From an uncultured Alphaproteobacteria bacterium (GTDB lineage Bacteria > Pseudomonadota > Alphaproteobacteria > HIMB59 > GCA-002718135): a stretch of DNA of 44,923 nucleotides. Shown here piece after piece: positions 4,690 to 23,345 of the stretch; the stretch's first letter is position 1; each line of letters starts with the position of its first letter. The notes under the pieces were generated by a model. It saw only the letters and a program-made list of their open reading frames with translations, had not been told where the DNA came from and did not search any database. The stretch is from positions 1 to 44,923 of the forward strand of contig CACOAX010000006.1 in assembly GCA_902625365.1 (NCBI GenBank), read 5' to 3'. The position numbers and the translations under genes were made by a program.

Positions 4690-4736
4690 AATAATTTAAT
4701 AACACTATTGTTAAATAGTAATTGATTTATTCATTA

Positions 4737-4755: not shown

Positions 4756-4780
4756 AAAATGAATAAAAGATCATTACAAT

Positions 4781-5752: not shown

Positions 5753-5763
5753 ATATTAATTAT

Positions 5764-6756
5764 ATGAAAGGATTTGATACTCAATTCAAAGATTTTCCCG
5801 ATTATATTTTAAAGATCACATATCAAATTTGGGAAAACAATGATGTTGAAGCAATCAGAGATTATTATGCTGATACTCCAAATGTAAGCCTCCCCACACC
5901 TACAAGATCTCCATCGGGAGTAATTTATGGTGCAGACCCAGTAATTGAAAGTACCTATGCTAGTAAAAAACTATTTCCCGACAGAACACTTTTAGGTGAA
6001 GATGTAATTTGGACAGGAAATGATGATGAGGGATATTTTTCATCACATCGCATTTTATCAACCTCTACTCATTCTGTTGATGGGATGTATGGGAAAGCAA
6101 CAGGAAAAAAACTCTATTATCGAACCATTGCTGATTGTGCATGTATGAATAATCAAGTTTATGATGAGTGGCTTGTGAGAGACCAAGGAGCAATTGTGAG
6201 ACAAATTGGAATTGATCCGAAGAAATTTGCAAGTAATCTTATTAAAGATGAAGGTGGTCCTGAAAAAGCTAGTAAACCATTTGATGAAAATACACCTGTT
6301 AAATCTATTTATAAATCTCCCATATTAGATTCTGGCAACATTGGAGAATTATATGCAAATATCTTAACTTCTATTATGAATATTAATTTAGAGAAAACAA
6401 TAAATGATAGTTATGACAGAGCTATACAGCAATACCAGCCAGGGGGAAAAACTCACCATGGTAGATATGAGGTAATAAAATTTTGGAAACAATTAAGAGA
6501 TGCTTTTCCTAACGCATTGTTCTCAGTCGAGCACATTGCTTTTACTGAAGAAAAATATGAACCAAAAAAAGCTTCAGTTCGTTGGTCTATGGTAGGTAAA
6601 CATGAAGGTGATGGTCTTTTTGGAAAAGCTTCTAATTCGAAAATTTATATAATGGGTATTAATCATGTTGAATTTGGAGAAAGAGGTATTAAAAATGAAT
6701 GGGTTCTCTATGATGAAACTATGATCTGGAAACAGATTTTATTAAAAACAGGTTAA
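5764..6756 (+). CDS. Two-domain SnoaL/NTF2-like protein, copy B
   Basis: This 330-residue protein without a signal peptide shows two SnoaL-like domains, roughly residues 1-160 and 190-328. Its opening (MKGFDTQFKDFPDYIL, then TYQIWE) is clearly matched by residues 51 onward of the 9001-10140 product (MKGFEDQYKNIIDYIV, TYQIWE), so the two are paralogues. They form a second subfamily, distinct from the pair at 3592-4689 and 7889-8893. The gene sits between the double cupin (11 bases upstream) and the MetE-core gene (4 bases downstream), so it is in an operon with both. The reaction is unknown. Known members of the fold catalyse cyclisation, isomerisation, hydration or dehydration without cofactors. 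Confidence 0.75.
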   Translation: MKGFDTQFKDFPDYILKITYQIWENNDVEAIRDYYADTPNVSLPTPTRSPSGVIYGADPVIESTYASKKLFPDRTLLGEDVIWTGNDDEGYFSSHRILSTSTHSVDGMYGKATGKKLYYRTIADCACMNNQVYDEWLVRDQGAIVRQIGIDPKKFASNLIKDEGGPEKASKPFDENTPVKSIYKSPILDSGNIGELYANILTSIMNINLEKTINDSYDRAIQQYQPGGKTHHGRYEVIKFWKQLRDAFPNALFSVEHIAFTEEKYEPKKASVRWSMVGKHEGDGLFGKASNSKIYIMGINHVEFGERGIKNEWVLYDETMIWKQILLKTG

Positions 6757-6760
6757 TTTA

Positions 6761-7888
6761 ATGTCTAATATTTTGACAACACATGTTGGAAGCCTTCCTA
6801 GATCAAAAGAACTTTCAGAATTTTTATTTGCAAAAGATAAAGGAGAGAAATTCAGTCAAAGTAGTTTTGATGAAGTGTTAAAAAAAAATGTCGAAAGTGT
6901 TGTTAAAAGACAACTTGATGTAGGAATTGATTTTGTCAGTGATGGGGAGATGAGTAAAATTAGTTATGCTACTTACATTAAAGATAGAATAGATGGTTTC
7001 TCAGGTGAAAGTGATAGAAGAGCACCTGCTGATCTAGATGATTTTCCAGAATACAAAGAAAAGATTGCTAAAAGTGGTGGCACGCCAACTTATACTCGAC
7101 CATGTTGTACAAACGAATTAGCAGTAAAAGATGAATTATCTCTTCTAAAAGACATAAATAATTTTAAAAATTCACTTAATAAATTAAATCATCAACATGC
7201 ATTTATGAATTCAGCTTCACCTGGTGTAATAAATGTTTTTATGCCAAATAAATTTTATAGTAGCGAAGATGAATATTTGGATAAATTATCTAATATTATG
7301 GCTAAAGAATACGAGGCTATAACAAAATCAAATATCCAAGTTCAGTTAGATTGCCCAGACCTTGCTTTAGCAAGACACATGAATTTTAAAAATTTATCAG
7401 AGGATGAATTTATCAAACGTGCAGAACTACAAATTGAATGTTTAAACTCAGCATTATCTAATGTTGATATTGAACAAACTAGAATGCACATATGTTGGGG
7501 AAATTATGAAGGGCCCCACACACACGATATTGCTCTAGAGAAAATATTACCTATAATTTTGAAATCAAAGATAAAATACTTTCTTATTGAATCTTCAAAT
7601 CCTAGGCACGCTCATGAATGGAAAGTTTTTCAAGATATAAAGTTACCAAAAGATAAAGTCCTAGTACCTGGAGTAATCGACTCAACCTCTAACTTTGTTG
7701 AACACCCAGAAGTTGTTGCAGATAGATTAATTCAGTTTTCTACAGTAATTCCAAAAGATCAATTAATGGCAGGGACAGATTGTGGTTTTAGTACTTTTGC
7801 TGGTTTTGGTAAAATCGATGAAAAAATTTGCTATGAAAAGCTTCATGCATTAGTTGAAGGTACTAAACTTGCCTCGAAAGTAATCTAG
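6761..7888 (+). CDS. Cobalamin-independent methionine synthase C-terminal-domain (MetE-core) protein
   Basis: This 375-residue protein corresponds to the C-terminal catalytic barrel of MetE, without the N-terminal half that makes full MetE about 750 residues. It begins with the family signature TTHVGSLPR. The zinc site is complete: H243-x-C245 (in MHICWG), E277 (in LIESSN) and C341 (in TDCGF). Such core proteins transfer methyl groups between thiols and methyl donors, and some act in catabolic demethylation. It ends the cupin-SnoaL operon, 4 bases after the SnoaL gene, and abuts the stop of the convergent SnoaL gene with no bases between. The methyl donor and acceptor are unknown. A second, divergent MetE-core gene lies at 20753-21802. 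Confidence 0.85.
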   Translation: MSNILTTHVGSLPRSKELSEFLFAKDKGEKFSQSSFDEVLKKNVESVVKRQLDVGIDFVSDGEMSKISYATYIKDRIDGFSGESDRRAPADLDDFPEYKEKIAKSGGTPTYTRPCCTNELAVKDELSLLKDINNFKNSLNKLNHQHAFMNSASPGVINVFMPNKFYSSEDEYLDKLSNIMAKEYEAITKSNIQVQLDCPDLALARHMNFKNLSEDEFIKRAELQIECLNSALSNVDIEQTRMHICWGNYEGPHTHDIALEKILPIILKSKIKYFLIESSNPRHAHEWKVFQDIKLPKDKVLVPGVIDSTSNFVEHPEVVADRLIQFSTVIPKDQLMAGTDCGFSTFAGFGKIDEKICYEKLHALVEGTKLASKVI

Positions 7889-8893
7889 TTACTGATTTAA
7901 AAATTTTGCTCTTTCTAAAAGATCCACTCCTAATTTTTTTAAAAAATGTAAATGATCAATAAAGATCCAATTTTCAGCCAATTTATCTCCGTCTCTTCGA
8001 TATAAATCTACAACTCTCATTTCTGATTCAATATCACTAGCATTTGTTAAGCCTAAATATTCTCCTTTAGGTTTCATAATTAAATTTGGCCAACCAAACC
8101 AACCACCTAGATCATCTTCAGAACTACTAAGTATGTGTCCATTGAAACGAACAAACTCTAAACCATCTTGAAATGGTTTTGTGTGACCTTTCTGATAACC
8201 ATCAATTGTGTATGAAGCACCTATACCTCCTGGTCCCCACCAAATCATATCATTATGCCAATCTAATTCTAATTCTTCTTTATAAGATTGCATTTTGGAT
8301 CCTTTAACAAGTCGATCGCGCATTCTATGAATTAAATCTAATGTTTTTTGACTTTCAGTTTGATTAGAAACATCAAATTTTAATCCTTTATGATTCATTG
8401 GTCCAGGCGTTACACAAACGAGACCTGTAGATTCAGGAATTATAGAAAGACCTAGTTGTTGCATTAAGTTCATTACATCTAAAAAAATAGCTCCTTCAGT
8501 AATTTTGTTATTTTCCACTTTGTAAAATTCTGCAAATCTCAATAAAATTGATTTATTATTTGGTTTAAGGCCTACAAACGGTTTATGGAAAACACCCATG
8601 AAATGACCCATACTTGAGATCCATTTCCCTTTATTTGTATCAAGTGAATTTATCCCAGCATAAAATATATCTAATCGACGTTGTATAGGTGAAAATGAAT
8701 TTTTAATTGGTTTCCAAAGATTATTAGCAACAAGATCTATATTGCCTAGTTCGTTGAAGGGATGGGTACATTTCATATTAAAATCTTCTGATGCGTATTT
8801 GGATACAACTTCTGATAATGAATCAATGTTGCAACTATCTATTTCATTGAAATAATCTAATACTAATTTTTTTTCTGCTTGGAGATCGGTCAT
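7889..8893 (-). CDS. Two-domain SnoaL/NTF2-like protein, copy C
   Basis: This 334-residue protein has two SnoaL-like domains, about residues 5-150 and 190-325. The second carries MIWWGPGGIG at 216-225, the counterpart of MMWYGPSGIG in the 3592-4689 product, and both proteins have the shared pattern of a Gly-Leu-Lys/Gly-Val-Lys-Pro-x-Asn-Lys stretch in the first domain. They are therefore likely paralogues. The gene is transcribed alone on the reverse strand, between the MetE-core gene (abutting, convergent) and a divergent two-gene SnoaL operon beginning at 9001. The function is unknown. Confidence 0.72.
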   Translation of the reverse strand: MTDLQAEKKLVLDYFNEIDSCNIDSLSEVVSKYASEDFNMKCTHPFNELGNIDLVANNLWKPIKNSFSPIQRRLDIFYAGINSLDTNKGKWISSMGHFMGVFHKPFVGLKPNNKSILLRFAEFYKVENNKITEGAIFLDVMNLMQQLGLSIIPESTGLVCVTPGPMNHKGLKFDVSNQTESQKTLDLIHRMRDRLVKGSKMQSYKEELELDWHNDMIWWGPGGIGASYTIDGYQKGHTKPFQDGLEFVRFNGHILSSSEDDLGGWFGWPNLIMKPKGEYLGLTNASDIESEMRVVDLYRRDGDKLAENWIFIDHLHFLKKLGVDLLERAKFLNQ

Positions 8894-9000
8894 TTCATTT
8901 TGATTATATTAATAAACTAAAAAAGACAATATGCATTTTTTTGAATAAAATTTCATTGCTTTGAAATATTTTTAAATGTATCTCATTATAAATACAAATT

Positions 9001-10140
9001 ATGAAATTTAATAAAATTACAGACAAAAGACCAGAAGCTCTTCAAGATCATCATATGCCTAAGAGTTATGATATTTCATTAAAAGCATACGGAGGTGGAG
9101 GAACAGCTAAATCATTAAATCCAAAACCAAAAAAACTTAAACATCAGTCAATGAAAGGGTTTGAGGATCAATACAAAAATATAATAGATTACATTGTAAG
9201 GATTACTTACCAAATATGGGAAGAAAAAAATATTGGGTATATTTATGACACCTATAGTAAAGATTGCAGAGTTTGGGATGAATTTGGTTTACAATCTGGA
9301 TCTGAAAAAATAGTTGCTGATACTGTACACACAAACAACGCCTTTCCAGATATTCGATTATTTGCAGATGAAGTTATTTGGGCAGGGGATGAAAATGCAA
9401 GTTATCATACTTCGCATAGAACAATTATTACTGGAACAAATACAGGATTTAGTAAATTTTCTAAACCAACTGGTAAAAAAGTAAGATTATTTTGTATCGC
9501 GAATTGTGTAGCAAAAAATAATGAAATTTATTACGAAAATGTTGTTTATGATACAGCAGGCTTGATTAAACAACTCGGATTAGATTTAAATCAAGTTGCT
9601 AAACAGCTTGTCAATGAGGGAATTGCAGGACCCTATGCTCCTCATTTTAGAAATTCTAAGCCAACAAGAAATATTACTAAATTAAAACCAATTAGTTTTG
9701 ATATTCCAGATAAAATTAAAAATGTGAGAGAGTTCGTTCATGCAGTTTATGATACAATTTGGAATAGACGAAACTTTTCTGCAATAAATAAAGCATACTC
9801 TAGTAATGTAGAATTTGAGGGTTCAACTGGTCGTAAATTTAAAGGAGTTTTGCAATTAAGAAAATTTATAATATCACTTTTAGCTTCATTTCCTGATCTT
9901 GCACTAAGTATTGAAGATTTATACTGGATGGGAAATACAAAAGATGGTTACTTAGTATCAGTTCGTTGGGGTGCAGTAGGAACTCATAAAGGTAATGGCT
10001 CATATGGGCAACCAACTAATAGAGAAGTTTTTTTGTGGGGAATCACTCAATGGGAAATTAAAAATAATAAAATTATTAAAGAGTGGACTGGTTTTAATGA
10101 ACTTGCAGTTCTAATGCAAATTTTAGGAGATAAAAAATGA
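9001..10140 (+). CDS. Two-domain SnoaL/NTF2-like protein with N-terminal extension, copy D
   Basis: This 379-residue protein is a paralogue of the 5764-6756 product. The similarity starts at Met51 (base 9151) and covers two SnoaL-like domains. The first 50 residues are basic and low in structure, with a GGGGT run. Two starts are possible: ATG at 9001, used here because the frame is open and the intergenic distance from the divergent gene is then about 107 bases, or ATG at 9151, which matches the paralogue exactly. Neither has a strong ribosome binding site. The gene overlaps the next SnoaL gene by four bases (ATGA), so the two products are co-translated. The reaction is unknown. Confidence 0.72.
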   Translation: MKFNKITDKRPEALQDHHMPKSYDISLKAYGGGGTAKSLNPKPKKLKHQSMKGFEDQYKNIIDYIVRITYQIWEEKNIGYIYDTYSKDCRVWDEFGLQSGSEKIVADTVHTNNAFPDIRLFADEVIWAGDENASYHTSHRTIITGTNTGFSKFSKPTGKKVRLFCIANCVAKNNEIYYENVVYDTAGLIKQLGLDLNQVAKQLVNEGIAGPYAPHFRNSKPTRNITKLKPISFDIPDKIKNVREFVHAVYDTIWNRRNFSAINKAYSSNVEFEGSTGRKFKGVLQLRKFIISLLASFPDLALSIEDLYWMGNTKDGYLVSVRWGAVGTHKGNGSYGQPTNREVFLWGITQWEIKNNKIIKEWTGFNELAVLMQILGDKK

Positions 10141-10556
10141 CTTTAGATGAAAGTAAAAAATTATTAGCTGATATGTATGATGCACTTAATGCTCAAGATC
10201 TTGAAGCTCAACATAAATATTGGCATGATAATATGGTTTGGCATGGCCCTCCAGGTTTTGGTGATATACATGGTATAGAAAATTTTAAATATAAAGTTCT
10301 AAAACCTTTTTATGAAGCATTTCCAGATTATCATGTAAAAAATGATATTGTTGTTGCTGAAGGTGAGTGGATTAGTGCAACAGGATTTTTAACAGGCACA
10401 CATAGTGGAGCATATCTTGGAGTAGAGCCAACAGGCAAATCTATAAAAATGCAATTCTCAGACTTTTGGACAATTAAAGAAGGAAAATTTTTAGACAACT
10501 ACGTAATGGTCGATAACCATGGTGTTTTTGAACAAATGGGATTGAAATTTAAGTAA
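10137..10556 (+). CDS. Single-domain SnoaL-like protein (ester-cyclase type)
   Basis: This 139-residue protein is a complete single SnoaL-like domain. MVWHGPPGFG at residues 33-42 matches the motif found in the second domains of the 3592-4689 and 7889-8893 products, so it corresponds to a free-standing version of their C-terminal half. The later segment YLGVEPTGKSIKMQFSDFW is typical of SnoaL-type ester cyclases. Its start overlaps the stop of the preceding two-domain gene by four bases. It ends about 30 bases before the convergent LacI-type regulator. The catalysed reaction is not known, and a non-catalytic role cannot be excluded. Confidence 0.8.
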   Translation: MTLDESKKLLADMYDALNAQDLEAQHKYWHDNMVWHGPPGFGDIHGIENFKYKVLKPFYEAFPDYHVKNDIVVAEGEWISATGFLTGTHSGAYLGVEPTGKSIKMQFSDFWTIKEGKFLDNYVMVDNHGVFEQMGLKFK

Positions 10557-10585: not shown

Positions 10586-11587
10586 TTACCTTGTAGTCCT
10601 TCTCTTTACAAGTCTACCTTTAACAATATGATTTATAGATTCATAGTCAGGATCTTGAATAAATTCATCAATTAATTGTGTAACGAGTTTTGACATTTGT
10701 CTTATAGGCTGCCTAACTGTTGTAAGATCATATGATTTCCAGTTTGACATAGAAATATCATCATAACCAATTAGTTCTAAGTTTTTTGGTATTTTTAAAT
10801 TAGTATTTTTTTTAATATAATCTAAACTTCCAAATGCCATCGTGTCGTCAGCACAAAATATGGCGCTGATTTTTTTATTTTTTAAAATTTTTTCAGCTGC
10901 TTGATATCCTCCTTCATACGTAAAAAAACCTTTTTCCGTAATGAGTTTTATTTTCTTTAAACTTTTTAAATATTGTTTAAATCCTCTTGATCTTTCATCA
11001 CTGACAAACGAACCTTTGGGACCTTCAATTAATCCAATTGATTGATGATTATTTTTTACAAAGTATTCAGCTACCATTTGACCGCCATTTTGATGATCAC
11101 ATGCAACTGAGCTTAAGGTTGGAATATCCCACGATCTATTGTAAGCAATAAATTGAATTCTTTTTGCATTACAACTTTCTACAAAACTATCAGTTGGTTT
11201 TGTTGCTGAAACAATAGCTATCAGTTTTTCTTTTAGATATGGCTGGATTAATTTTTCATCTAACTCCTCTCCATCATCAGTTGTAATTAACAGAATTCTA
11301 AAACCACCCAATCTAAGAGCTTCATGTAATTCTATTAAAACTTCAGGATAATATCTGCTTGTTACATACGGTAATATGACAGCAACTAAACCACTGTCTT
11401 CATTTGATACTGAGCCATTTGAAATATTAGGCGCTTTATACTTTAATTTTTTAGCAGCTTCTAAAACTCTTAATTTTGTTCTACTTGAAATACTAGCACC
11501 TTTAGTAAAACACCTTGAAACTGCTGATTGAGATACTCCAGCTAGCTTTGCTACGTCTTGTGATGTCGCAGTCTTATTAGAATTCAT
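10586..11587 (-). CDS. LacI-family transcriptional regulator
   Basis: This 333-residue regulator has an N-terminal LacI-type helix-turn-helix at about residues 8-28 (SQDVAKLAGVSQSAVSRCF), followed by the hinge region and a periplasmic-binding-protein-like sensor domain. The domain carries the usual signatures, including AIFCADDTMAFG and IGYDD. LacI regulators usually repress sugar uptake and catabolism genes and are released by a sugar or sugar phosphate. It is transcribed divergently from the sugar ABC operon at 11719, across a 131-base gap with several palindromes, so that operon is its most likely target. Control of the SnoaL cluster on its other side is possible. Confidence 0.92.
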   Translation of the reverse strand: MNSNKTATSQDVAKLAGVSQSAVSRCFTKGASISSRTKLRVLEAAKKLKYKAPNISNGSVSNEDSGLVAVILPYVTSRYYPEVLIELHEALRLGGFRILLITTDDGEELDEKLIQPYLKEKLIAIVSATKPTDSFVESCNAKRIQFIAYNRSWDIPTLSSVACDHQNGGQMVAEYFVKNNHQSIGLIEGPKGSFVSDERSRGFKQYLKSLKKIKLITEKGFFTYEGGYQAAEKILKNKKISAIFCADDTMAFGSLDYIKKNTNLKIPKNLELIGYDDISMSNWKSYDLTTVRQPIRQMSKLVTQLIDEFIQDPDYESINHIVKGRLVKRRTTR

Positions 11588-11718: not shown

Positions 11719-12954
11719 ATGAAAAAACTATTAATAGCTTTATTATTCTCTTTTGTTAGCACAAGTGCGTTTGCTGATGGGCACTCACCTTGTGGAGTAA
11801 CAGATGGATCGATAAAGATTCTAGCAAACGAATTTACGACATACAGAATTTTCATGGATGAAGTAAAAAGTTGTGCAGGAGATGGAGCAGATTTTTCTGT
11901 AACTCACTCCGTTGATCATAATAAATTACAAGTAGCAGCTTTATCAGCTAACCCAGCTGAGTTCTCAGCTAAACTTGTAACTAACGGTTCAATTACAACT
12001 CTGATGAATGATAACTTAATTCGTCCACTTGATGATTTAGTTGCTAAATACGGAAGTGCATTACAAGACAATCAGAAAATCGTGATTGATGGTAAGATAT
12101 ATGCAATAGCTTTTATGGCTAATGCACAACATCTTTGGTACAGAGAAAGCATTCTTAATGATTTAGGGATAGCTGTTCCTTCAACTTATGAAGAAGTAAT
12201 TGCAGCTGCAGAGAAAATTAAGGCTTCTGGTAAAATGGCTAATCCATATGCTGGAGCATTCAAATCTGGCTGGAACCTTGGTCAAGAGTTTGTAAATATG
12301 TACTTAGGTCATGGCGGTGATTTCTTTAAAGCTGGAACAGCTGAAGTAAGTGTCAATAATGACAAAGGTGTAGCTGCTCTTAATATGCTAAAAAGACTAA
12401 CAGAAGTTAGTAACCCAGATTTCTTAACTCAAGATACAAATGCAGTTAAAGAAGAATGGGAGTCAGGCAACGTAGCACTAATGCATGTTTGGAATTCTGG
12501 TGCAGCATCATTATTAGATGATGAAGGTGATCAAATGATCAAAGCAGATACAAGACTAGCAAATTCTCCAACAGTTGGTGGCGGAAGTAAACCTGCTACA
12601 ACTCTTTGGTGGGATGGATTTGGTATTGCAACAAATACATCTGATGCAAATGCAGAAGCATCATTTAGAGCTCTTCTAGGTGCAGCAACTTCAACAGAAA
12701 TGGCAAATGCTAATCCAAATGCAACAATTTGGTTAATTGATGGCTATACTCCAGGAGATACTGCTGGACCAGTTGTTGACGCTGCTAATAGAGGTGCAAC
12801 ACCTTACCCAAGCTTACCTTACATGGCTTTATTACACGGTGCTTTAAGTACGGAACTTGTAGAATTTCTTCAAGGTAATGAGTCTGCTGAAAAAGCTTTG
12901 GCTGATGTAGAAGCTGCTTACGTAGCAAAAGCTACTGAGCAAGGTTTTCTATAA
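11719..12954 (+). CDS. Sugar ABC transporter substrate-binding protein (family 1)
   Basis: This 411-residue periplasmic protein has a clear signal peptide (KKLLIALLFSFVSTSAFA, cleavage after about residue 19). It shows the features of family-1 solute-binding proteins of carbohydrate (CUT1) importers, such as LWYRESILNDLGIAVPSTYEE and WWDGFGIATNTSD. It captures a sugar and hands it to the membrane permeases encoded downstream. It has a strong Shine-Dalgarno sequence, unlike most genes in the window, and is followed by a terminator before the permeases, which fits high expression of the binding protein. The sugar is unknown. The adjacent LacI-type regulator and downstream SDR dehydrogenase support a carbohydrate. 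Confidence 0.92.
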   Translation: MKKLLIALLFSFVSTSAFADGHSPCGVTDGSIKILANEFTTYRIFMDEVKSCAGDGADFSVTHSVDHNKLQVAALSANPAEFSAKLVTNGSITTLMNDNLIRPLDDLVAKYGSALQDNQKIVIDGKIYAIAFMANAQHLWYRESILNDLGIAVPSTYEEVIAAAEKIKASGKMANPYAGAFKSGWNLGQEFVNMYLGHGGDFFKAGTAEVSVNNDKGVAALNMLKRLTEVSNPDFLTQDTNAVKEEWESGNVALMHVWNSGAASLLDDEGDQMIKADTRLANSPTVGGGSKPATTLWWDGFGIATNTSDANAEASFRALLGAATSTEMANANPNATIWLIDGYTPGDTAGPVVDAANRGATPYPSLPYMALLHGALSTELVEFLQGNESAEKALADVEAAYVAKATEQGFL

Positions 12955-13020: not shown

Positions 13021-14049
13021 ATGCCTCATAAAACATTTTTTTGGTTTTTCTTTCCAAGTGGTTTAGCCATGTTACTGTTTATAGGTCTCCCAATTATCTC
13101 AAGCTTTTTTCAATCACTACACATTGAACCCGAGCAGATTTTAATGGAAGTAGAAAAATGTGATCCATTTGGATGTAAAACAGAAACTAAAGTAGATATT
13201 GAGGCTACTACAAAACTACAAGAGGAACAGCCTCTTGGAAGATTTAATGGTTTAGGAACATACGGTGATAGAAATCATTTGGCCTTTGAAGAAATTAAAG
13301 AAGCTTGGGGAAATTCTTCCTCAATGTCTGAGTTTATAGATATCTTGCTGAATTTGCCATTTTATAAAGCACTTTTATTTACTCTTACATTTTGTTTTGC
13401 TGTTACACCTCCTGTTGTTGTTTTAGGATTTATAGTTGCCTTAAGTATTAATACTCTTACAAAAAGTTTGAAGGGCCCAACAATTTTTGGTGTTATTCTT
13501 CCAATGATAGTTACACCCTTAATTGGTTCACTCGTTTTATTCTGGATGATAGACGCAAAAGGTATTTTAGGAGCAACAATTCAATATTTATTTGATGATC
13601 CTAATTTATCATTAAAATCATCAAGTCAATTAACATGGATAACTTTAATTATTTATGGAATTTGGCATAATACACCTTTTGCTTTTGTTGTATTTTATGC
13701 TGCTTTACAAACTGTACCTCAAGATCCTATTGAAGCGGCAATCATTGATGGAGCCTCACGTTATGAAAGAGTAAGACATATAGTTATTCCACATCTTTAT
13801 CCAGTTGCAACATTTATTATATTAATTTGTCTTATGGATAATTTTAGAGTTCTTGAACCTATAATAGGTTTTGCTGCTGAAGGAGTTGCTCAATCACTTT
13901 CCTGGATGATTTACAATGATTTAAGAAGTGAAAACAAAATGTTATTTGGATCAGCTGGTGCTACATCCATGTTAACCATTATCGGTGTAGCCTTCTTGTT
14001 GACACCAGTTCTAATTAGAACTTGGAAAGAGTTTAGAACAGAAAGATAA
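13021..14049 (+). CDS. Sugar ABC transporter permease, MalF/UgpA type
   Basis: This 342-residue inner-membrane permease belongs to the CUT1 class. A first membrane helix lies near residues 7-29, followed by a long hydrophilic stretch to about residue 110, probably periplasmic, then further helices. The cytoplasmic coupling motif is PQDPIEAAIIDGASRYERVR followed by IVIPHLYP, the EAA loop that docks the ATPase. It is separated from the binding-protein gene by a terminator and is followed one base later by the second permease. No matching ATPase gene of the MalK/UgpC type is in the window, so the complex must use an ATPase encoded elsewhere. Confidence 0.9.
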   Translation: MPHKTFFWFFFPSGLAMLLFIGLPIISSFFQSLHIEPEQILMEVEKCDPFGCKTETKVDIEATTKLQEEQPLGRFNGLGTYGDRNHLAFEEIKEAWGNSSSMSEFIDILLNLPFYKALLFTLTFCFAVTPPVVVLGFIVALSINTLTKSLKGPTIFGVILPMIVTPLIGSLVLFWMIDAKGILGATIQYLFDDPNLSLKSSSQLTWITLIIYGIWHNTPFAFVVFYAALQTVPQDPIEAAIIDGASRYERVRHIVIPHLYPVATFIILICLMDNFRVLEPIIGFAAEGVAQSLSWMIYNDLRSENKMLFGSAGATSMLTIIGVAFLLTPVLIRTWKEFRTER

Positions 14050-14050: not shown

Positions 14051-14932
14051 ATGGAATCAAAAATTAATAGATATTCAAGACAACTAATTTTAATAAATAG
14101 TTTATTTATAATACTTTGGTTAGTAGTGTCTGTGTTTCCTTTTATATGGACATTTTGGGGATCTTTTAAAGTAAAAGCCGATTTCTTTTCAAGAGCTGAC
14201 TGGATGTTTGCTGTAACTGGTGTAAATACTCTCATTGAAACAGGAGATACTTCAACTGTAAAAGCATATGTAGAGTCCTGGACAGAGGGTGAATTCTGGA
14301 AAGCTACATTAAATACAATTATTATTACCGTATCTGTCGTAACTATTTCTTTATTCCTTGGAACTCTAGGTGCTTATGCATTGTCTAGATCAACTTATAA
14401 ATATACTTTTTGGATTTTAATAGCTGCTTTAATATTTAGAGCAATGCCTCATATCACATTAGTGTCTGGTTACTTATTTCCTTTCTTTCAATTGAATGTG
14501 TGGGGGATACTGCCAACTACAATAATAGTTTTAGTAGCAATCAATCAACCTTTTACCTTATGGTTGCTTTATTCATTTTTTAAAACCGTGCCTAAAGAGC
14601 TTGATGAAAGTGCATTAATTGATGGTTGTAGTTATTTTCAAGCGTTTCGTTATGTTATAATGCCAGTTATGTGGCCAGGTGTTATTACTGCAGGATTATT
14701 TAGTATGATGTTAGCCTACAATGATTTCACAGTTACATCTCTACTTTTAAACCAACAAAATTACACAATGGTACCTAAAATTAATGCTTATTTGGGTACA
14801 ATCGAACATAGTGGAAATTATATGTGGGCAGTCTCAAGTGTTGTATCAGCAACTGCACCATTGTTTATGATAATCATGTTTTTCCAAAGACAATTAATAA
14901 GTGGTTTAACTGCCGGAGCAGTAAAAGGTTAA
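14051..14932 (+). CDS. Sugar ABC transporter permease, MalG/UgpE type
   Basis: This 293-residue inner-membrane permease is the second CUT1 subunit. It has about six membrane helices, the first near residues 13-35. Its EAA loop is VPKELDESALIDGCSYFQAF followed by RYVIMPVMWPG. It starts one base after the stop of the first permease, so it is in the same operon and probably translationally coupled. It would pair with the 13021-14049 product to form the channel for the sugar delivered by the 11719-12954 binding protein. Confidence 0.92.
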   Translation: MESKINRYSRQLILINSLFIILWLVVSVFPFIWTFWGSFKVKADFFSRADWMFAVTGVNTLIETGDTSTVKAYVESWTEGEFWKATLNTIIITVSVVTISLFLGTLGAYALSRSTYKYTFWILIAALIFRAMPHITLVSGYLFPFFQLNVWGILPTTIIVLVAINQPFTLWLLYSFFKTVPKELDESALIDGCSYFQAFRYVIMPVMWPGVITAGLFSMMLAYNDFTVTSLLLNQQNYTMVPKINAYLGTIEHSGNYMWAVSSVVSATAPLFMIIMFFQRQLISGLTAGAVKG

Positions 14933-14954: not shown

Positions 14955-15614
14955 ATGAAATATAAGGCACTACTATTTGGATCTATCGGGACACTTATTG
15001 AATCTTCTAATATTCAACGTAATTCATTTAATGAAGCTTTTAAAGAAGCAGGACTTGATTGGTATTGGGATGAGCAAGATTATAAGATTTTGTTAAAAAA
15101 ATCTGGTGGCACAAAAAGGGTAGAAGATTTTGCTGAAAAAAATAATGTTAATGTAAATGCTTCACAAATTAGAAATAGAAAAACAGAACTTTTTAGCTCA
15201 TTCATTATTCAGAATAAACAAAAATTAAGAAAGAGTGTTGATGAAATAATTAAGTATACAAAAGATAACAATATTAAACTTGCTTTCTCAACTTCTACAA
15301 CTTTAAATAATGTCGATGCAGTATTTGAAAGTCTTTCTAATCAAATTTCTAAAGAAGATTTTGACTTTATTGGCAATAAATCGTTTGTTAAAAATGAAAA
15401 ACCCCACCCAGAAATATACAAAGTCACATTAGATAAACTAAATTTACATCCAGAAGATTGTCTTGCAATAGAAGACACTGAAGAAAGTAGTAACTCTGCA
15501 GTAAATGCTGGAATTAAGTGTGTAGGGTTTCCAGGAGATTATCACCTAGAAGATAATTTTCAGATGTGTATCAAAAAAATGAATTTATTAGATCAATCTA
15601 TCTTTTCATTGTAA
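14955..15614 (+). CDS. HAD-superfamily protein with degenerate motif I (CbbY/phosphoglucomutase-like)
   Basis: This 219-residue protein has the Rossmann-type core of HAD subfamily-I hydrolases. Motif II (AFSTSTT), the motif III lysine (KNEKPHPEIY) and motif IV (AIEDTEES) are all present. In motif I the usual DxDGT reads GSIGTL: Gly9 replaces the nucleophilic aspartate and Ile11 replaces the acid/base aspartate. The ordinary phosphatase or phosphomutase mechanism therefore should not work. I believe related marine alphaproteobacterial proteins share this FGSIGTL start, which would make it a family trait rather than a mutation; I cannot check that here. It lies 22 bases after the permease, in the sugar operon. 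Confidence 0.8.
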   Translation: MKYKALLFGSIGTLIESSNIQRNSFNEAFKEAGLDWYWDEQDYKILLKKSGGTKRVEDFAEKNNVNVNASQIRNRKTELFSSFIIQNKQKLRKSVDEIIKYTKDNNIKLAFSTSTTLNNVDAVFESLSNQISKEDFDFIGNKSFVKNEKPHPEIYKVTLDKLNLHPEDCLAIEDTEESSNSAVNAGIKCVGFPGDYHLEDNFQMCIKKMNLLDQSIFSL

Positions 15615-15627: not shown

Positions 15628-16395
15628 ATGTTTCTAAAAAATTTTAATGTAAAAAATAAGACTGCTCTTGTTACTGGATCAGGCAAAGGGATCGGTAAAG
15701 CATGTGCCATAGCATTAGCAGAAGCAGGTGCAAATGTAATTATTCTTAGTCGTACAAAAAAAGATCTTTTAATTGTTCAAAATAAAATTAAAAAACTAAA
15801 AAAGAAATGTAGTTATTATGTGTGCGATGTAACTAATTTTGAAGAAATAAAAAAAATATTTTCTGAAATAAATAAATTAGATATTTTAGTAAATAATGCT
15901 GGCACAAACAGACCTGAATATTTTACCAAAATTAAAAGAAAAGATATGAGTGAAGTGGTTGATCTTAATATTAAAGCATCATTCGATATTGCTCAATTAG
16001 CTACAAAAGTTATGCTTAAATCAAAAAATAGAAAAAAAATCGGTGGATCAATTATAAATATCTCTTCTCAGTTAGGTAAAGTAGGAGCTCCTCTTAGAAG
16101 CGTTTATAATATGACAAAGTTTGGTATCGAAGGTCTAACTAAAGGGATGGCTATTGATTTGGCGAAACATAACATTAGAGTTAATTCTGTTTGTCCTACA
16201 TTTGTTGAAACACCAATGGTCAAAAAATTTTTTAAAGATAAAAGTTTTAAAAATTCTGTTATTAAAAACATACCTTTGGGCAAAGTAGCAACAGAAAGTG
16301 ATATCGCTAGTGCTGTAGTATATCTTGCTTCAGATGCTGCATCAATGATGACCGGCTCTTCACTAATAATTGATGGAGGATGGACAGCTAAATAA
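15628..16395 (+). CDS. SDR-family NAD(P)-dependent oxidoreductase
   Basis: This 255-residue classical short-chain dehydrogenase has the cofactor motif TGSGKGIG at residues 16-23, NNAG at 89-92, the catalytic Ser in NISSQLG, and Tyr160/Lys164 in YNMTK. The C-terminal MMTGSSLIIDGGW is also typical. Members with this form oxidise or reduce sugar acids, aldoses and related alcohols (for example gluconate 5-dehydrogenase-like enzymes). The substrate is not determined by the sequence. It lies 13 bases after the HAD gene and appears to end the sugar ABC operon, so it probably acts on the imported sugar or its acid. Confidence 0.9.
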   Translation: MFLKNFNVKNKTALVTGSGKGIGKACAIALAEAGANVIILSRTKKDLLIVQNKIKKLKKKCSYYVCDVTNFEEIKKIFSEINKLDILVNNAGTNRPEYFTKIKRKDMSEVVDLNIKASFDIAQLATKVMLKSKNRKKIGGSIINISSQLGKVGAPLRSVYNMTKFGIEGLTKGMAIDLAKHNIRVNSVCPTFVETPMVKKFFKDKSFKNSVIKNIPLGKVATESDIASAVVYLASDAASMMTGSSLIIDGGWTAK

Positions 16396-17283: not shown

Positions 17284-18183
17284 TTAGTTATTTGCAGCAA
17301 CTACAGCTGCCATAATTGATGCAAGTTTAGAATTTTTACTATCTGCTCTACTTGGAACCACAACTGGTACTTTACCACCAATTACTATTCCTGCCGCACA
17401 AGCATTCATAAAATAAACCATTATTTTGGACAAAGAATTTCCAGTTTCTAAATTAGGTACTAATAATATATCAGTATCACCAGCAACATCATTATTGATT
17501 CCTTTTATTTTAGCTGCTTCCTCAGAGACAGCATTATCAAAAGCAAGCGGTCCATGAATAAAAGCATTAATTTTTTCTTCTAGCGCAAGTTCCATAACTT
17601 TTTTGGCATCAACTGAACTTGGCATACTATCAATTGGATCTTCTGTACCTGATAAAATTGCAACTTTTGGTTTGTTAATGTTTAATTTATTACAAAACTG
17701 AACAGCATTTTTAAGAATTTGTAATTTTATATCAACTCTTGGTAAAACATTTAAAGCGCCATCAGTGATAAAAAGGGGTTTTTTAAGCTGCGGTGTAGTC
17801 ATATGCCAAATATGACTTAATCGTCTACCATCAAGTAAATTAAATTCTTTTTTTAAATAAGAACGCATTAAAATATCAGTATGAAGGTTCCCTTTAATTA
17901 TGATTTTACTTTTATTTTCATTAGACATTTGACAAGCAATTGAAGCACTATCCTCTTCATCTTTAGCCTCTACAATATTAAAACTCGAAATATCCAAATT
18001 TAAATTTTTCGCTGTCTCAAAAATTAAACTTTTATTTCCAATTAAAGTTGGATCGATAAGGTTCATATTTTTACCTTCAATTACAGCTGATAATATGCTT
18101 TCTTGATTGGGGCACACAACAGCTACGGATATATTTGGAGTCTCTAAAGCTTTACTTTTAAGATCTTCTGGTAATATGCTCAT
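17284..18183 (-). CDS. Phosphate acetyl/butyryltransferase-family protein
   Basis: This 299-residue protein has the phosphotransacetylase/phosphotransbutyrylase fold. Conserved regions include FITDGALNVLP, VAILSGTEDPIDSMPSS and the segment DILLVPNLETGNSLSK. The family exchanges CoA and phosphate on acetyl or butyryl groups. Its length matches the phosphotransbutyrylase branch rather than long Pta. It diverges from the aminotransferase/alanine-dehydrogenase pair. In sulfonate degraders a Pta converts acetyl phosphate made by Xsc to acetyl-CoA, but no Xsc gene is in this window, so that role is only a possibility. Another acyl-phosphate pathway is equally open. Confidence 0.82.
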   Translation of the reverse strand: MSILPEDLKSKALETPNISVAVVCPNQESILSAVIEGKNMNLIDPTLIGNKSLIFETAKNLNLDISSFNIVEAKDEEDSASIACQMSNENKSKIIIKGNLHTDILMRSYLKKEFNLLDGRRLSHIWHMTTPQLKKPLFITDGALNVLPRVDIKLQILKNAVQFCNKLNINKPKVAILSGTEDPIDSMPSSVDAKKVMELALEEKINAFIHGPLAFDNAVSEEAAKIKGINNDVAGDTDILLVPNLETGNSLSKIMVYFMNACAAGIVIGGKVPVVVPSRADSKNSKLASIMAAVVAANN

Positions 18184-18225
18184 ATTTGGTGTTCTCTGTA
18201 TACCACTGCTACAATTTTTCCTATG

Positions 18226-18251
18226 ATATTTCTTTATTGTGTAAGAAATAT
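18226..18251. promoter_or_regulatory. Inverted repeat in a divergent promoter region (candidate operator)
   Basis: Arms ATATTTCTT (18226-18234) and AAGAAATAT (18243-18251) form a perfect 9-base inverted repeat with an 8-base spacer. It sits in the 117-base gap between the phosphotransacetylase-family gene and the aminotransferase gene. This is where a shared regulator would bind, but no regulator gene is adjacent. The aminotransferase has a fair ribosome binding site (AAGGA, near 18293). A chance AT-rich repeat is possible. Confidence 0.35.
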
Positions 18252-18300
18252 TCTTTGATTTATCGATAATTTCATATACTCAATCTCTAATAAGGAAAAA

Positions 18301-19641
18301 ATGGATTTAGAAAAAAGAACAGAAATACCTAATTCGTTAGAAGAACATTGGATGCCATTCACATCTAATAGAGACTACAAAAATAGTCCAAGATTAATGG
18401 TTAAAGCTGAAGGTGTTTATTATACTGATCATTATGGAGACAAATTAATTGATGCAAGCTCTGGATTATTTTGTAGTCCAGCAGGTCATTCAAGACCTGA
18501 AATAAGAGAAGCTGTATCAAATCAATTAGAACAATTAGATTATGTTCAGCCGTTTCAACAAGGTTTTGGCGGCTCATTCGATTTAGCAAGAAAAGTTTCT
18601 AAACATACACCAGAAGATTTAAATAAAATCTTTTTTACAATTTGTGGTTCTTCTGCTGTTGAAACAGCAATTAAAACTGCAATAGCATATTTTAAAGCAA
18701 AGGGTGAGGGTCATCGATCACATATTGTAGGAAGAGAAAGAGGTTATCATGGAATGAACATTGGAGGTATTTCTGTTGGAGGTATGATTGCAAATAGAAA
18801 AACTTTCTCGAATATTCTTATGCCAAATGTTCATCATCTAAGACACACACATTTACCTGAAAACTTATTTGTAAAAGGTGAGCCAGAAACAGGAGCAGAC
18901 CTTGCAGATGATTTAGAGAGAATTGCAGGTAACATTGGTGCAGAAAATATTGCTGCATGTATTGTTGAGCCTGTAGCAGGTTCGACAGGAACTTTAGTTC
19001 CACCAAAAGGTTATCTAAAAAGACTTAGAGAAATATGTGATAAACATGGAATACTTTTAATTTTTGATGAAGTAATTACTGGTTGGGGAAGAATGGGAGC
19101 GCCATTTGGAGCACAAGCATTTGGAGTATGTCCTGATATCATGACAATGGCCAAAGCTATTACTAATGGTGTTGTACCCTTAGGAGCAGTTGCTTCACGA
19201 GATCATATCTATGATACTATAGTTGAAGCATCACCTACAGGCGCTATTGAATTTTTTCATGGATATACTTATTCAGCTATTCCCGTTTCCATGGCAGCAG
19301 GATTAGCTATGCAAGATATTATTGAGAAAGAAGATTTATTTAATAGAGCTAAAGATATGTCTCCATACTTTTTAGATGGCTTATTTTCTTTAAAAGATTT
19401 GGACATCATTACTGACATAAGAGGATATGGAATGATGGGAGGAATAGATATTAAAATGGATGAGCGTTTAGGGAAAGCTGGATATGCTTGTTTTAAAAAA
19501 TTATTTGAAGCAGGATTAAGCTTAAAAGCAACTGGCGATTGTTTAATTGTTGCGCCACCATTTATTTGTGAAAAAAAACATATTGATGAGATAATTGAAA
19601 AGCTAAGAACTGGTATCTCAAATTATATGCATGATAGATAA
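18301..19641 (+). CDS. Omega-amino acid:pyruvate aminotransferase (class III, PLP)
   Basis: This 446-residue class-III aminotransferase has the PLP lysine at Lys285 (MTMAKAITNG) and the preceding cofactor segment LLIFDEVITGWGR. The start (LEEHWMPFTSNRDYK) and the sequence IVEPVAGSTGTLVPPKGYL closely resemble the beta-alanine/omega-amino acid:pyruvate branch (BauA type). It would move an amino group from an omega-amine such as beta-alanine, taurine or a polyamine product to pyruvate, giving alanine. Its stop shares one base with the start of alanine dehydrogenase (TAATG). That enzyme would regenerate pyruvate and release ammonium, so the pair is a deamination module. The donor amine is undetermined. 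Confidence 0.88.
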   Translation: MDLEKRTEIPNSLEEHWMPFTSNRDYKNSPRLMVKAEGVYYTDHYGDKLIDASSGLFCSPAGHSRPEIREAVSNQLEQLDYVQPFQQGFGGSFDLARKVSKHTPEDLNKIFFTICGSSAVETAIKTAIAYFKAKGEGHRSHIVGRERGYHGMNIGGISVGGMIANRKTFSNILMPNVHHLRHTHLPENLFVKGEPETGADLADDLERIAGNIGAENIAACIVEPVAGSTGTLVPPKGYLKRLREICDKHGILLIFDEVITGWGRMGAPFGAQAFGVCPDIMTMAKAITNGVVPLGAVASRDHIYDTIVEASPTGAIEFFHGYTYSAIPVSMAAGLAMQDIIEKEDLFNRAKDMSPYFLDGLFSLKDLDIITDIRGYGMMGGIDIKMDERLGKAGYACFKKLFEAGLSLKATGDCLIVAPPFICEKKHIDEIIEKLRTGISNYMHDR

Positions 19642-20756
19642 TGAAAATAGGTGTTCCATCTGAGATTAAGGCTCAAGAGTCTAGAGTAGGGCTTACACCA
19701 CAAAGTGTTAAAGAATTAATTAAAGATAAGCATACAGTCTTAATACAAAAAGATGCTGGTGTTGGTGCTGGCTTTTCTAATAGTGATTATGAATTATCAG
19801 GTGCAAAAATTGTAAATTCAGCTGAGGATATTTTCAATGATTCTGAAATGATTGTAAAAGTAAAAGAACCTCTAATGAATGAAGTAGCAATGATAAGAGA
19901 AAACCAAATTTTATTTACTTATTTACATCTTTCAGCAGCTCCAGAATTGACAAAGGGCTTAATTGATTCAAATTCAATTTGTATAGCTTATGAAACAGTA
20001 AGTGATCATAACAATAAACTACCCCTACTTGCTCCTATGAGTGCTGTTGCAGGCAGAATGTCAATACAAGCAGGTGCGTATTCACTTGAAAAACATAAAG
20101 GTGGAAGTGGTTTGCTATTAGGTGGCGCACCTGGAGTTTCACCTGGAAATGTATTAATTTTAGGTGGAGGTGTTGTAGGTGAAAATGCAGCAATAATTGC
20201 TACTGGTATGCAAGCAAAAGTTTTCATAGTTGATAAGTCAGAAAAAAGATTAGAAGAATTACAAGAAAAATTTGGAGATAAAATAGAACCACTGCACAGT
20301 GATAAAATAAATCTAAAAGATTATATTTCTGAATGCGATTTACTAATTGGTGGCGTACTTGTTCCAGGCTCTAATGCTCCAAAGATTATAACTAAGGACA
20401 TGATCAAAGAGATGAAAAGTGGATCTGTGATTGTTGACGTTGCTATTGATCAAGGTGGTTGTGTTGAAACAAGTAAACCAACAACTCATGCAAACCCTAC
20501 ATATGTTGTTGATGGTATTGTTCATTATTGTGTTGCAAATATGCCAGGTGGAGTTCCTAGAACTTCCACACTTGCTTTAAATGCAGTCACTTTACCATTT
20601 ATTCAAAAACTAGCCTCTAACGGTTTTAAAGATGCGTTAAAAAATGATAGAAATTTTATGAATGGTTTAAATATTTTCAAAGGTGCCGTTACATATAAAG
20701 CTATTGCCGATGATTTAAATTATGATTATGCTAATCCAGAAACTTTAGTAAATTAG
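19641..20756 (+). CDS. ald: Alanine dehydrogenase
   Basis: This 371-residue NAD-dependent enzyme interconverts alanine and pyruvate plus ammonium. It has the family start GVPSEIKAQESRVGLTP with the substrate-binding Arg, the lysine of VKVKEP (near residue 75), the histidine of YLHLSAAP (near 96), the nucleotide-binding GGGVVGENAA, and the aspartate of AIDQGG. Length is normal for Ald. It overlaps the aminotransferase gene by one base and is clearly coupled to it, so the likely direction here is oxidative deamination of alanine. Its stop overlaps the convergent MetE-core gene by four bases (TTAG). Confidence 0.95.
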   Translation: MKIGVPSEIKAQESRVGLTPQSVKELIKDKHTVLIQKDAGVGAGFSNSDYELSGAKIVNSAEDIFNDSEMIVKVKEPLMNEVAMIRENQILFTYLHLSAAPELTKGLIDSNSICIAYETVSDHNNKLPLLAPMSAVAGRMSIQAGAYSLEKHKGGSGLLLGGAPGVSPGNVLILGGGVVGENAAIIATGMQAKVFIVDKSEKRLEELQEKFGDKIEPLHSDKINLKDYISECDLLIGGVLVPGSNAPKIITKDMIKEMKSGSVIVDVAIDQGGCVETSKPTTHANPTYVVDGIVHYCVANMPGGVPRTSTLALNAVTLPFIQKLASNGFKDALKNDRNFMNGLNIFKGAVTYKAIADDLNYDYANPETLVN

Positions 20757-21802
20757 AAATTATTAGAAGCTTCTACCATTATCTTTAATTTTATTTTTGC
20801 CAAATCTCGAGGTAAGTGACCAAGACCACAATCAGGAGCAACAATTAATTGTTCCTTATCAATAAACTTTAATGCATCATTTATTCTAGTGACTATTTCA
20901 TCTTTAGTCTCAATTTGAGAGCTTGCAATTTTTATTAAACCAAAAATAACTTTTGTTTGATTAAAATCTTTTAAAAAATCTAAATCATTGTATCGATGAG
21001 CATCTTCAATAGAAACTGTATCTATAATTGACTGATCTAAAGCTTTACTAATTTTGCTATAAGAATCTAAAGGCGCTTTTGGATAGTTTACTGCATTTAA
21101 TTTGTCAGGATAGCCACAACAAATATGAGTAATTTTTTCAATACTTTGATTATTTATATCCTTAAAACATCTCTCTAAATTTTTGATTCCAAATTTCAGA
21201 GCATTTTCAGGTTTTCTCGCAAACAACGGTTCATCGACTTGAATATATTTACATCCTGCATCAACTAATCTTTTAATTTCTACATTAATGGCATCAGCTA
21301 AGTCTTCACCCATGTGTTCATCTGATTCATAATATGTATTCGCTATGGTATCTGTTATAGTCATTGGTCCAGGAATAGTAATTTTCAAATCCTTATTGGT
21401 TAAACTCTGATTTTTTTTCCACTCTTCAACTAAAAAAGATTCTTTTGCTTTAACTTTTGAAGTGATTGTTGGTAACCAGCATTTATAATTACCTGTTCTA
21501 GCAACTTTTTCTGAGAGATTTGTAAAATCAATTCCTTCTAAATATCTACAATGATAGTGAATATAGTTTTCTCTTCTAACTTCACCATCGGTAAGGATAT
21601 CAATACCGCATTCTTCCTGATCACTAATTATTTCTTTAGTAGCTTTATTAAATAACTCTTCAACATTATCGCCCATCTTTTTTATTTCATCTTCATAAAA
21701 TTTTGTTGGGTATTCAGTATCTGTACCACCAGAAGCATTAAACCAATCAGTTATTTTTAGGTAGCTTGGTTTTGGATAGGCGCCTATAACAGTCGTTAAC
21801 AT
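20753..21802 (-). CDS. MetE-core (cobalamin-independent methionine synthase C-terminal-like) protein, second copy
   Basis: This 349-residue protein is again only the C-terminal barrel of MetE. It starts with TTVIGAYPKPSY. The zinc site is complete: H226-x-C228 (HICCG), E266 (VSIEDAH) and C325 (APDCGLG). It is only distantly similar to the 6761-7888 copy, so this is an old pair rather than a recent duplication. It lies 7 bases downstream of the phosphonate-monoester-hydrolase-like gene and is almost certainly in one operon with it. That suggests a catabolic methyl transfer or a thiol-linked step on the hydrolysis product, rather than methionine synthesis. The true substrate is unknown. Confidence 0.85.
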   Translation of the reverse strand: MLTTVIGAYPKPSYLKITDWFNASGGTDTEYPTKFYEDEIKKMGDNVEELFNKATKEIISDQEECGIDILTDGEVRRENYIHYHCRYLEGIDFTNLSEKVARTGNYKCWLPTITSKVKAKESFLVEEWKKNQSLTNKDLKITIPGPMTITDTIANTYYESDEHMGEDLADAINVEIKRLVDAGCKYIQVDEPLFARKPENALKFGIKNLERCFKDINNQSIEKITHICCGYPDKLNAVNYPKAPLDSYSKISKALDQSIIDTVSIEDAHRYNDLDFLKDFNQTKVIFGLIKIASSQIETKDEIVTRINDALKFIDKEQLIVAPDCGLGHLPRDLAKIKLKIMVEASNNF

Positions 21803-21809
21803 ATCTTTA

Positions 21810-23345
21810 TTATTCCATTTTTCTGCTAAATGGTCCAGAATTTGTATTTACGCCTGAACTAGAAAGTTTTGTATTTGATAATTGTCGCTCCTGATGAATC
21901 ATGCGGTGACTTAATAATTTTGATACTAGTTCATGTTTTATATCTTGAAATTCTCTTATATTTGAAAGATCATTTATTTCCTTAGGATCCTTTTCTAAAT
22001 CAAATAATAAACTTGGTAATGAGGGAAAATGAACATATTTCCATTTATTATCTCTAATGACTGATAGATTACATTGTTCGGGTGCTAATCTTTTATCTTT
22101 AACAAATGAAGTACTTTCTCTAAAATCATAATCAAAAACAACATATTCTTTATTAGGTGATTTTTCGTATTTATAATTAATATTGTTCATCAGTGATTGA
22201 CCATTCCAATCAATGGGGATTTCACCACCAAGCCATTCTAAAATTGTAGGAGCAACATCTACCGATTCTGTTAAATGGTTAATTTCTTTTGGATTGTTTT
22301 GAGGCACATATATAAACAATGGAATTCTATAAGAAGAATCCCACCAACCTAATTTCCCCCATAAATTATTTTCATTTAACATCTCTCCATGATCACTAGT
22401 AAATATTATCATTGTATTCTCTTCTTGACCTGATTCTTTAAGAGCATTCAAAATTTTACCAATATTAAAATCAACTTCTGCGCACATAGCAAAATAGACA
22501 CTCATAATATTTTTGATATCTTGATCTTTTAAAAGATCATAATTAATTTCAGAGAAATTTTCTTTTAATAAAAATTTTTTACATAACTCTTCAAGTAGAG
22601 GGTGTTTTTTTGATAATTCTTTAAGTGAAATATCATTTTTAGAAAAATTAATATTATCTGGATTAAATTTACTGAACCATGGATCAGCTACATGAAAGGG
22701 CGGGTGTGGTTTTAAAAAAGATACATGCATAAAAAATGGATCTTTGACTTTTTTTAAATCGTTAACAACTTTGTCTGCTAAAAATGCAGTGTCTGAAAAT
22801 TCAGTTGGAATATAATATGGTTCATAAATATATGCTTGATCATCTTTAGGCTTTCTTCCTTTGTACAAATCTTCTGCTTTATTAATCTTAAAACCATTTT
22901 GATTAAGATGGTTAGCCCAAGCTTCAGGTTTTCCTCCAGGTAAAATACAACCATCATCAAATCCTTCCATTGGTGATTCATAAGTAAAATTTTTTTTATC
23001 TTTTGGATCCAAATATCTTGGATCCCATGAGGTGTCTGTGTATCCATAAAGACTTGGATTATAATTTAGTTTACGAACCTCTTTAGCGATATTTGTAAAT
23101 CTTTTATCAAGAGGCGCTCCATTAAAAACTGATCGATGAATAAATGGATACAAACCGGTTAGCATAGTTGTTCTTGATGGACCACAAGGTACTATTCCAG
23201 CAAAATGTGATTTAAAAACAACACTTTTTTTAGCAAGCTTGTCTAAGTTTGGTGTAAGAGCATGTGGATGATTTAGAAAACTAAAGCAATCAAAACGCCA
23301 TTGATCTGCGCATATAAAAAGTACGGATTTTTTAGATTTTTGCAT
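21810..23345 (-). CDS. Phosphonate monoester hydrolase / sulfatase-family enzyme
   Basis: This 511-residue member of the alkaline-phosphatase superfamily hydrolyses phosphate, phosphonate or sulfate esters. The formylglycine-type motif CGPSR begins at Cys54, so activity would need oxidation of that cysteine. Metal-site segments are the N-terminal ICADQWRFD and the later FTSDHGEML. The spacing and the C-terminal region (SVIRDNKWKYVHF, LFDLEKDPKEINDL) resemble phosphonate monoester hydrolases (PMH) more than arylsulfatases. No signal peptide is seen, so it is probably cytoplasmic and acts on an imported ester. No formylglycine-generating enzyme is in the window. It is first in an operon with the MetE-core gene. 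Confidence 0.88.
   Translation of the reverse strand: MQKSKKSVLFICADQWRFDCFSFLNHPHALTPNLDKLAKKSVVFKSHFAGIVPCGPSRTTMLTGLYPFIHRSVFNGAPLDKRFTNIAKEVRKLNYNPSLYGYTDTSWDPRYLDPKDKKNFTYESPMEGFDDGCILPGGKPEAWANHLNQNGFKINKAEDLYKGRKPKDDQAYIYEPYYIPTEFSDTAFLADKVVNDLKKVKDPFFMHVSFLKPHPPFHVADPWFSKFNPDNINFSKNDISLKELSKKHPLLEELCKKFLLKENFSEINYDLLKDQDIKNIMSVYFAMCAEVDFNIGKILNALKESGQEENTMIIFTSDHGEMLNENNLWGKLGWWDSSYRIPLFIYVPQNNPKEINHLTESVDVAPTILEWLGGEIPIDWNGQSLMNNINYKYEKSPNKEYVVFDYDFRESTSFVKDKRLAPEQCNLSVIRDNKWKYVHFPSLPSLLFDLEKDPKEINDLSNIREFQDIKHELVSKLLSHRMIHQERQLSNTKLSSSGVNTNSGPFSRKME

Follow-up and report, generated by a model that had tools for sequence, protein, structure and literature searches.

A clade of CbbY-like HAD proteins lacking both motif-I aspartates, linked to a marine alphaproteobacterial gene cluster

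The 44,923-nucleotide stretch of DNA analysed here (the window) corresponds to contig C6 of a genome that is only 55% complete at 1.03 Mb; it encodes, at 14955–15614 on the forward strand, a 219-amino-acid HAD protein that begins MKYKALLFGSIGT and is read from an intact open reading frame with an ATG start. The protein exceeds the Pfam cut-offs for HAD_2 (71.1 bits) and Hydrolase (61.9 bits), and these matches together with an AlphaFold2 model place it in the HAD superfamily as a core domain with a C1 cap. Motif I, DxDGT in catalytic HAD phosphohydrolases, reads GSIGT (G9-S10-I11-G12-T13; 14979–14993, forward strand), and a gap-free alignment sets this segment against DVDGT of wild-type R. sphaeroides CbbY. 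A preliminary description of this DNA had placed G9 and I11 at the nucleophile and acid/base sites, which the reading frame and the CbbY alignment confirm, and had held that the other motifs are kept, as indeed they are: motif II is represented by T113 (15291–15293, forward strand; T or S in 67/67 GxIG tree rows), motif III by K149-P150 (15399–15404, forward strand) and motif IV by E173-D174 (15471–15476, forward strand). The protein, a putative CbbY-like pseudophosphatase that we refer to by its GxIG motif, thus has the S/T, lysine and acidic residues of a catalytic HAD phosphohydrolase and lacks the DxD nucleophile and acid/base pair. A PF00702 search for a second, catalytic copy in this 55%-complete genome found two domains over the cut-off, the GSIGT protein and a DFDG-type protein on contig C17.

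The HAD gene starts 22 bases past ABC permease 2 (14051–14932, forward strand; 64% identical to a relative annotated as a carbohydrate ABC transporter permease) and ends 13 bases ahead of an SDR oxidoreductase gene (15628–16395, forward strand), a spacing that makes co-transcription of the three genes very likely. Upstream lie ABC permease 1 (13021–14049, forward strand; 57% identical to a Ruegeria conchae relative annotated as a sugar ABC transporter permease), an ABC solute-binding protein of generic carbohydrate type (SBP_bac_1; 11719–12954, forward strand) and, divergent from the importer genes, a LacI-type regulator (10586–11587, reverse strand); the stretch from the LacI gene to the SDR gene contains no ATPase gene. 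Beside the importer, window positions 2267–10556 hold five SnoaL-like genes (10137–10556, 9001–10140, with two matched stretches, and 5764–6756 on the forward strand; 7889–8893 and 3592–4689 on the reverse strand), a MetE-like (Meth_synt_2) gene (6761–7888, forward strand), a double cupin gene with two matched stretches that serves below as co-occurrence marker (4781–5752, forward strand) and a HisD-family dehydrogenase gene (2267–3589, reverse strand). The HisD-family enzyme is nearer to sulfopropanediol 3-dehydrogenase (HpsN; 401 bits) than to the best histidinol dehydrogenase (260 bits), and because it is HpsN-like the importer may carry something other than a sugar. The genes scanned in this cluster include none recognised as coding for a phosphorylating enzyme. 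Next to the cluster, positions 17284–23345 carry genes for a phosphotransacetylase-like protein, an omega-aminotransferase (passing the AptA model), an alanine dehydrogenase, a second MetE-like protein and a PehA/sulfatase-like protein. The HIMB59/AEGEAN-169 group is reported to possess sugar transporters in addition to those found in SAR11 (PMC10308909).

To place the altered motif among relatives, we collected 172 distinct homologues by similarity, without selection for the motif, from the protein's own order, the orders of genomes G163, G272 and G311 (the last being Rhodobacterales) and a class sample. Glycine occupies the nucleophile position in 133 of them and DxDG is present in 39; 126 of the 133 read GxIG and the remainder GxVG, GxLG, GxMG, GxIS, GxLS or GxLA. 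The G-x-I-G motif, rarely with V, L or M for I, occurs in four alphaproteobacterial orders, certain Rhodobacterales members read GSLS, GSLA or GGMG, and T13 is variable (T, V, S or A). The preliminary description had asked whether close homologues keep an intact DxD. They do not: GSIGT is present in every one of the 35 distinct own-order proteins that the similarity search yielded, and the intact-DxD proteins that were read form a separate clade at no more than 35% identity to the window protein, a value within overlapping ranges since identity to it falls as low as 22% in certain GxIG members. Within the own order, 43 genomes have a match among 60 relatives and the window's own genome, every match listed has an open frame, and the gene is absent from genome G037 (99% complete, one contig). 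Across 74 distinct own-order proteins, pattern-scan loci included, residues 9–12 are fixed and are encoded by all four glycine codons, all four TCN serine codons and all three isoleucine codons.

Searching 84,980 species with GSIG[TV][LI][IAV]E[TS]S as the pattern returned 384 stretches, 377 of which encode a relative; GSIG is part of the pattern, and the motif in the 80 of these loci that were listed is therefore not independent evidence. The 30 loci of a phylum sample in which the motif was read divide into 6 GxIG and 24 DxD. Scanning viral contigs with the motif pattern gave 66 matches with no relative among them, and a phage origin was rejected. One Rhodobacterales genome (L246) has adjacent HAD-like stretches at 9689 (GSIGS) and 10348 (GSLSA, very divergent), and a contig titled Euryarchaeota archaeon (L108), probably a mislabelled metagenome bin, carries a GxIG HAD 88% identical to that of the window with the same neighbours.

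Changes in the motif were counted on trees built without residues 8–13, 18 and 21. A first tree of 123 rows needed two D/G changes because two long rows, the GSLSA row L246_10348 and the outgroup L002, group together; once three long rows (L002_1498, L246_10348 and L142_4327) were removed, the 120-row tree needed one, a single branch with SH-aLRT 97 separating the GxIG rows from the DxD rows, both trees being 'quick' builds without bootstrap. The same branch of the 120-row tree (SH-aLRT 97) places the window protein outside the DxD CbbY-like clade. Among 29 own-order proteins, 318 of 406 pairs fell within the dS range kept (0.1–1.5) and gave a median dN/dS of 0.115 (range 0.04–0.80). The clade thus combines inherited loss of catalytic residues with purifying selection, the combination expected of a pseudoenzyme, and the sequences indicate that loss of both motif-I aspartates is an old inherited trait of the whole protein family.

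Structure and sequence both identify CbbY, the xylulose-1,5-bisphosphate (XuBP) phosphatase of R. sphaeroides (4UAR/4UAT/4UAU) and A. thaliana (4UAV), as the nearest known family. An AlphaFold2 model built from 23 own-order sequences (mean pLDDT 92.9, pTM 0.88) has as its top solved fold matches the R. sphaeroides CbbY structures 4uar, 4uau and 4uat (Z 28.7–28.8, rmsd 2.2–2.3, 218 residues), followed by Arabidopsis CbbY (Z 25.0) and other HAD-IA proteins (Z at most 24); Foldseek is concordant, and the best sequence match to CbbY has an E value of 7.5e-35. Unlike CbbY, the GxIG protein has both motif-I aspartates, E18 and H21 replaced and belongs to a separate clade. Among the part of the window genes scanned as neighbours there is no Rubisco or Calvin-cycle gene. 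Beta-phosphoglucomutase and the HAD-IA sugar phosphatases of TIGR02009 share the HAD core with C1 cap, and TIGR02009 is the best NCBIfam model, at 79.3 bits far under its cut-off of 153.35 bits; the fold match to the beta-phosphoglucomutase group is weaker than that to CbbY (Z about 22), and the window protein lacks its DxD. CbbY is described as specific for XuBP (PMC10212915). Two of the matched structures, 4uat and 4uau, are of a CbbY D10N mutant with xylulose-1,5-bisphosphate bound, reading DVN in the alignment, where the mutated site is the second (acid/base) aspartate and is equivalent to I11 of the window protein. As this mutant was solved with substrate, loss of the acid/base aspartate need not stop binding; the precedent reaches that aspartate only, and not the glycine at the nucleophile site.

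We next compared 67 GxIG rows with 53 canonical DxD rows of the reduced tree set. G9 is present in 67/67 and I11 in 63/67 GxIG rows, set against aspartate at both sites in 53/53 canonical rows, and in all six positions are fixed differently between the clades (D9G, D11I, E18S, H21Q, Y80F and S194G). Outside motif I the CbbY signature is intact, with 28 positions common to both clades at 85% or more, among them E16, R22, T115 and the residues also shared with CbbY itself (N26, W36, W38, Y43, G51-G52, R55, K76, R92, K149-P150 and E173-D174). R55, K76, R92, T115, K149, P150, E173 and D174 stand at 90–100% in the GxIG clade, E54, K148 and G178 are fixed in the DxD clade and drift in the GxIG clade, and 7/67 GxIG rows deviate at K149 or D174 (5 and 3 rows per site). 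Residue 10 is most often serine (S in 149/169, A in 15/169, G in 5/169). The six-position switch and the 28 shared positions together indicate that the acid/base side of the pocket has been re-set as a unit while cap, motif-III and motif-IV residues are mostly kept. An earlier suggestion that phosphatase chemistry is lost fits this pattern, because both motif-I aspartates, with E18 and H21, are replaced across the clade; non-catalysis itself is what the residues would predict.

The surroundings of the gene differ between groups. In the own genus-level group (L060–L126) the SDR gene directly follows the HAD gene in 67/67 related loci and an importer gene lies upstream in 66/67. The solute-binding protein of these loci is 39–100% identical to that of the window beside a constant HAD–SDR pair, which suggests exchange of importer cassettes (transporter alleles) next to a stable pair. 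In the sister group (L127–L139) the SDR gene is absent from 13/13 loci and a permease gene lies directly upstream of the HAD gene in 7/13. In the order of G272 the HAD gene occurs with an ABC importer in 8/18 loci, in most of which SnoaL-like, cupin and MetE-like genes come next. In the Rhodobacterales 16 of 34 GxIG loci are beside carB, 10 of these 16 being also near aspS, and the importer/SnoaL/cupin/MetE-like cluster adjoins the HAD gene only at L260 (1/34). The term 'sugar-import operon' in the preliminary description therefore holds, as an importer operon, for the window and the 66 and 8 loci just given and for only 1/34 loci in the Rhodobacterales, and a sugar is no more than a candidate for the substrate. 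In Rhodobacterales loci such as L211, L213, L216, L218, L221 and L223, carB and aspS flank the GxIG gene, a housekeeping setting distant from any sugar importer.

The gene set at window positions 2267–16395 matches the importer/SnoaL/cupin/MetE-like cluster of other orders, and we examined whether cluster and HAD gene occur in the same genomes, taking matches at E ≤ 1e-30 as GxIG presence and the cupin as cluster marker. The cupin is present overall in 117/244 Rhodobacterales genomes and in 69/136 genomes of the order of G272. By GxIG status, it occurs in 39/39 GxIG-bearing Rhodobacterales genomes versus 78/205 without a GxIG match, in 1/13 Rhodobacterales genomes with a DxD protein as their match, and in the order of G272 in 44/48 GxIG genomes versus 25/88 without. 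The corresponding p-values (6.8e-15 and 2.4e-13) count genomes and ignore kinship, and overstate the association because the genomes are related; counted by genus, 54 of 100 genera have the cupin, and these include all 17 GxIG genera (p about 7e-6). A shared marine lifestyle could contribute to the co-occurrence. Another cluster gene lies within 1.5 kb in 28/30 cupin loci read, the exceptions being L338 and L341. The association seems, from these gene counts, to run one way: the HAD would need the cluster, and the cluster, present without the HAD in 78 Rhodobacterales genomes, would not need the HAD. Among the 48 GxIG genomes of the order of G272, 4 are without the cupin, and these include G749, which is 99% complete. 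Parts of the cluster also occur on one Ensifer and one Vibrio plasmid. Ruegeria conchae and Octadecabacter arcticus carry the cluster on plasmids, where the 25 kb examined contains no annotated HAD, and the Roseobacter litoralis member on plasmid pROLI81 is annotated 'HAD-IA family hydrolase' though it lacks the nucleophile. Full-text literature searches for a SnoaL/cupin/MetE-like/HpsN-like/ABC cluster yielded no description of it.

Together these observations suggest, at about even confidence, that the GxIG clade consists of CbbY-like HADs that lost the motif-I aspartates once and may be kept as non-hydrolysing, ligand-binding pseudophosphatases serving the cluster. A CbbY-type phosphatase would have lost hydrolysis once and retained its ligand-gripping residues; the resulting protein, presumably unable to transfer phosphate, would bind a phosphorylated metabolite resembling the CbbY substrate between cap and core and leave it uncut. 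As a metabolite sensor or chaperone it might then act on a cluster partner, whether the adjacent SDR, a SnoaL-like enzyme or the regulator, with cap closure as the signal passed on. The sensor or chaperone role, already proposed in the preliminary description for a sugar phosphate, is one that we infer from the retained R55, K76, R92, T115, K149, E173 and D174. A more specific version, which we hold tentatively and at clearly less than an even chance, is that the clade is a dedicated metabolite sensor or chaperone derived once from a CbbY-type sugar-bisphosphate phosphatase for an undescribed marine alphaproteobacterial catabolic cluster (SnoaL-like proteins, double cupin, MetE-like protein, HpsN-like dehydrogenase, SDR, LacI regulator and CUT1-type ABC importer), even when encoded far away from it. 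Against a ligand-binding pseudophosphatase stand the loss of K149 or D174 in 7/67 rows, the deviant GSLS, GSLA and GGMG motifs of certain Rhodobacterales members and the position of 33/34 Rhodobacterales GxIG loci away from the importer. The 78 genomes that have the cluster and not the HAD, and the failure to recognise a phosphorylating enzyme among the scanned cluster genes, also count against it. The nucleophile aspartate of HADs also holds the metal, and G9 may therefore weaken binding of a phosphate–Mg ligand.

An unlikely alternative, though the best placed of those we weighed, is that the HAD fold serves as a structural partner only, a protein–protein module (for example with the SDR) that binds no small ligand and whose conserved residues are inherited folding constraints. 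The invariant HAD–SDR adjacency in L060–L126 beside a varying solute-binding protein speaks for it, as does the loss in the GxIG clade of the canonical fixed positions E54, K148 and G178; yet without a ligand the cap, motif-III and motif-IV residues R55, K76, R92, K149, E173 and D174 would be expected to drift rather than stay at 90–100%, and all 13 sister-group loci lack the SDR. Slightly less likely again is new chemistry without an aspartyl-phosphate, such as isomerisation or elimination on a phosphorylated or hydroxylated substrate through E16, S18, Q21, K149, E173 or D174. S18 (90%) and Q21 (93%) are as strongly fixed in the GxIG clade as E18 and H21 in the canonical clade, so the active site looks re-set rather than decayed, and the HAD gene is co-directional with catabolic genes; however, T13 varies freely, and we know of no HAD without a motif-I aspartate that acts as a catalyst. 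A phosphatase that uses S10 as substitute nucleophile is improbable: serine is the commonest residue at its site, but alanine or glycine takes its place in 20/169 proteins, including whole Roseobacter-type groups, a distribution that excludes a serine nucleophile as the mechanism of the clade as a whole. A decaying pseudogene or sequencing error, for which only the departure of motif I from its textbook form speaks, has a negligible chance and is ruled out by the open frames of the own-order matches listed, GSIGT in 35/35, the dN/dS of 0.115, the single origin and the synonymous codon variation.

Loss of catalysis with retention of the fold for binding or regulation has parallels in Tim50 and the phosphatase domains of class II trehalose-phosphate synthases, which are catalytically dead HADs of unrelated subfamilies and in other contexts. 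Among the listings returned by full-text literature searches on catalytically dead HADs, none describes the GxIG clade. The GxIG proteins thus form a conserved clade without motif-I aspartates beside CbbY, with local error excluded as its explanation. Annotation calls HAD proteins hydrolases on the strength of their fold, even where, as with a member of this clade, the nucleophile is missing. For a ligand-binding pseudophosphatase, the one inherited loss, the re-set active site and the link to a gene cluster would together make the GxIG proteins a clean case of a phosphatase turned into a binding protein, and the clade points to a widespread marine catabolic cluster.
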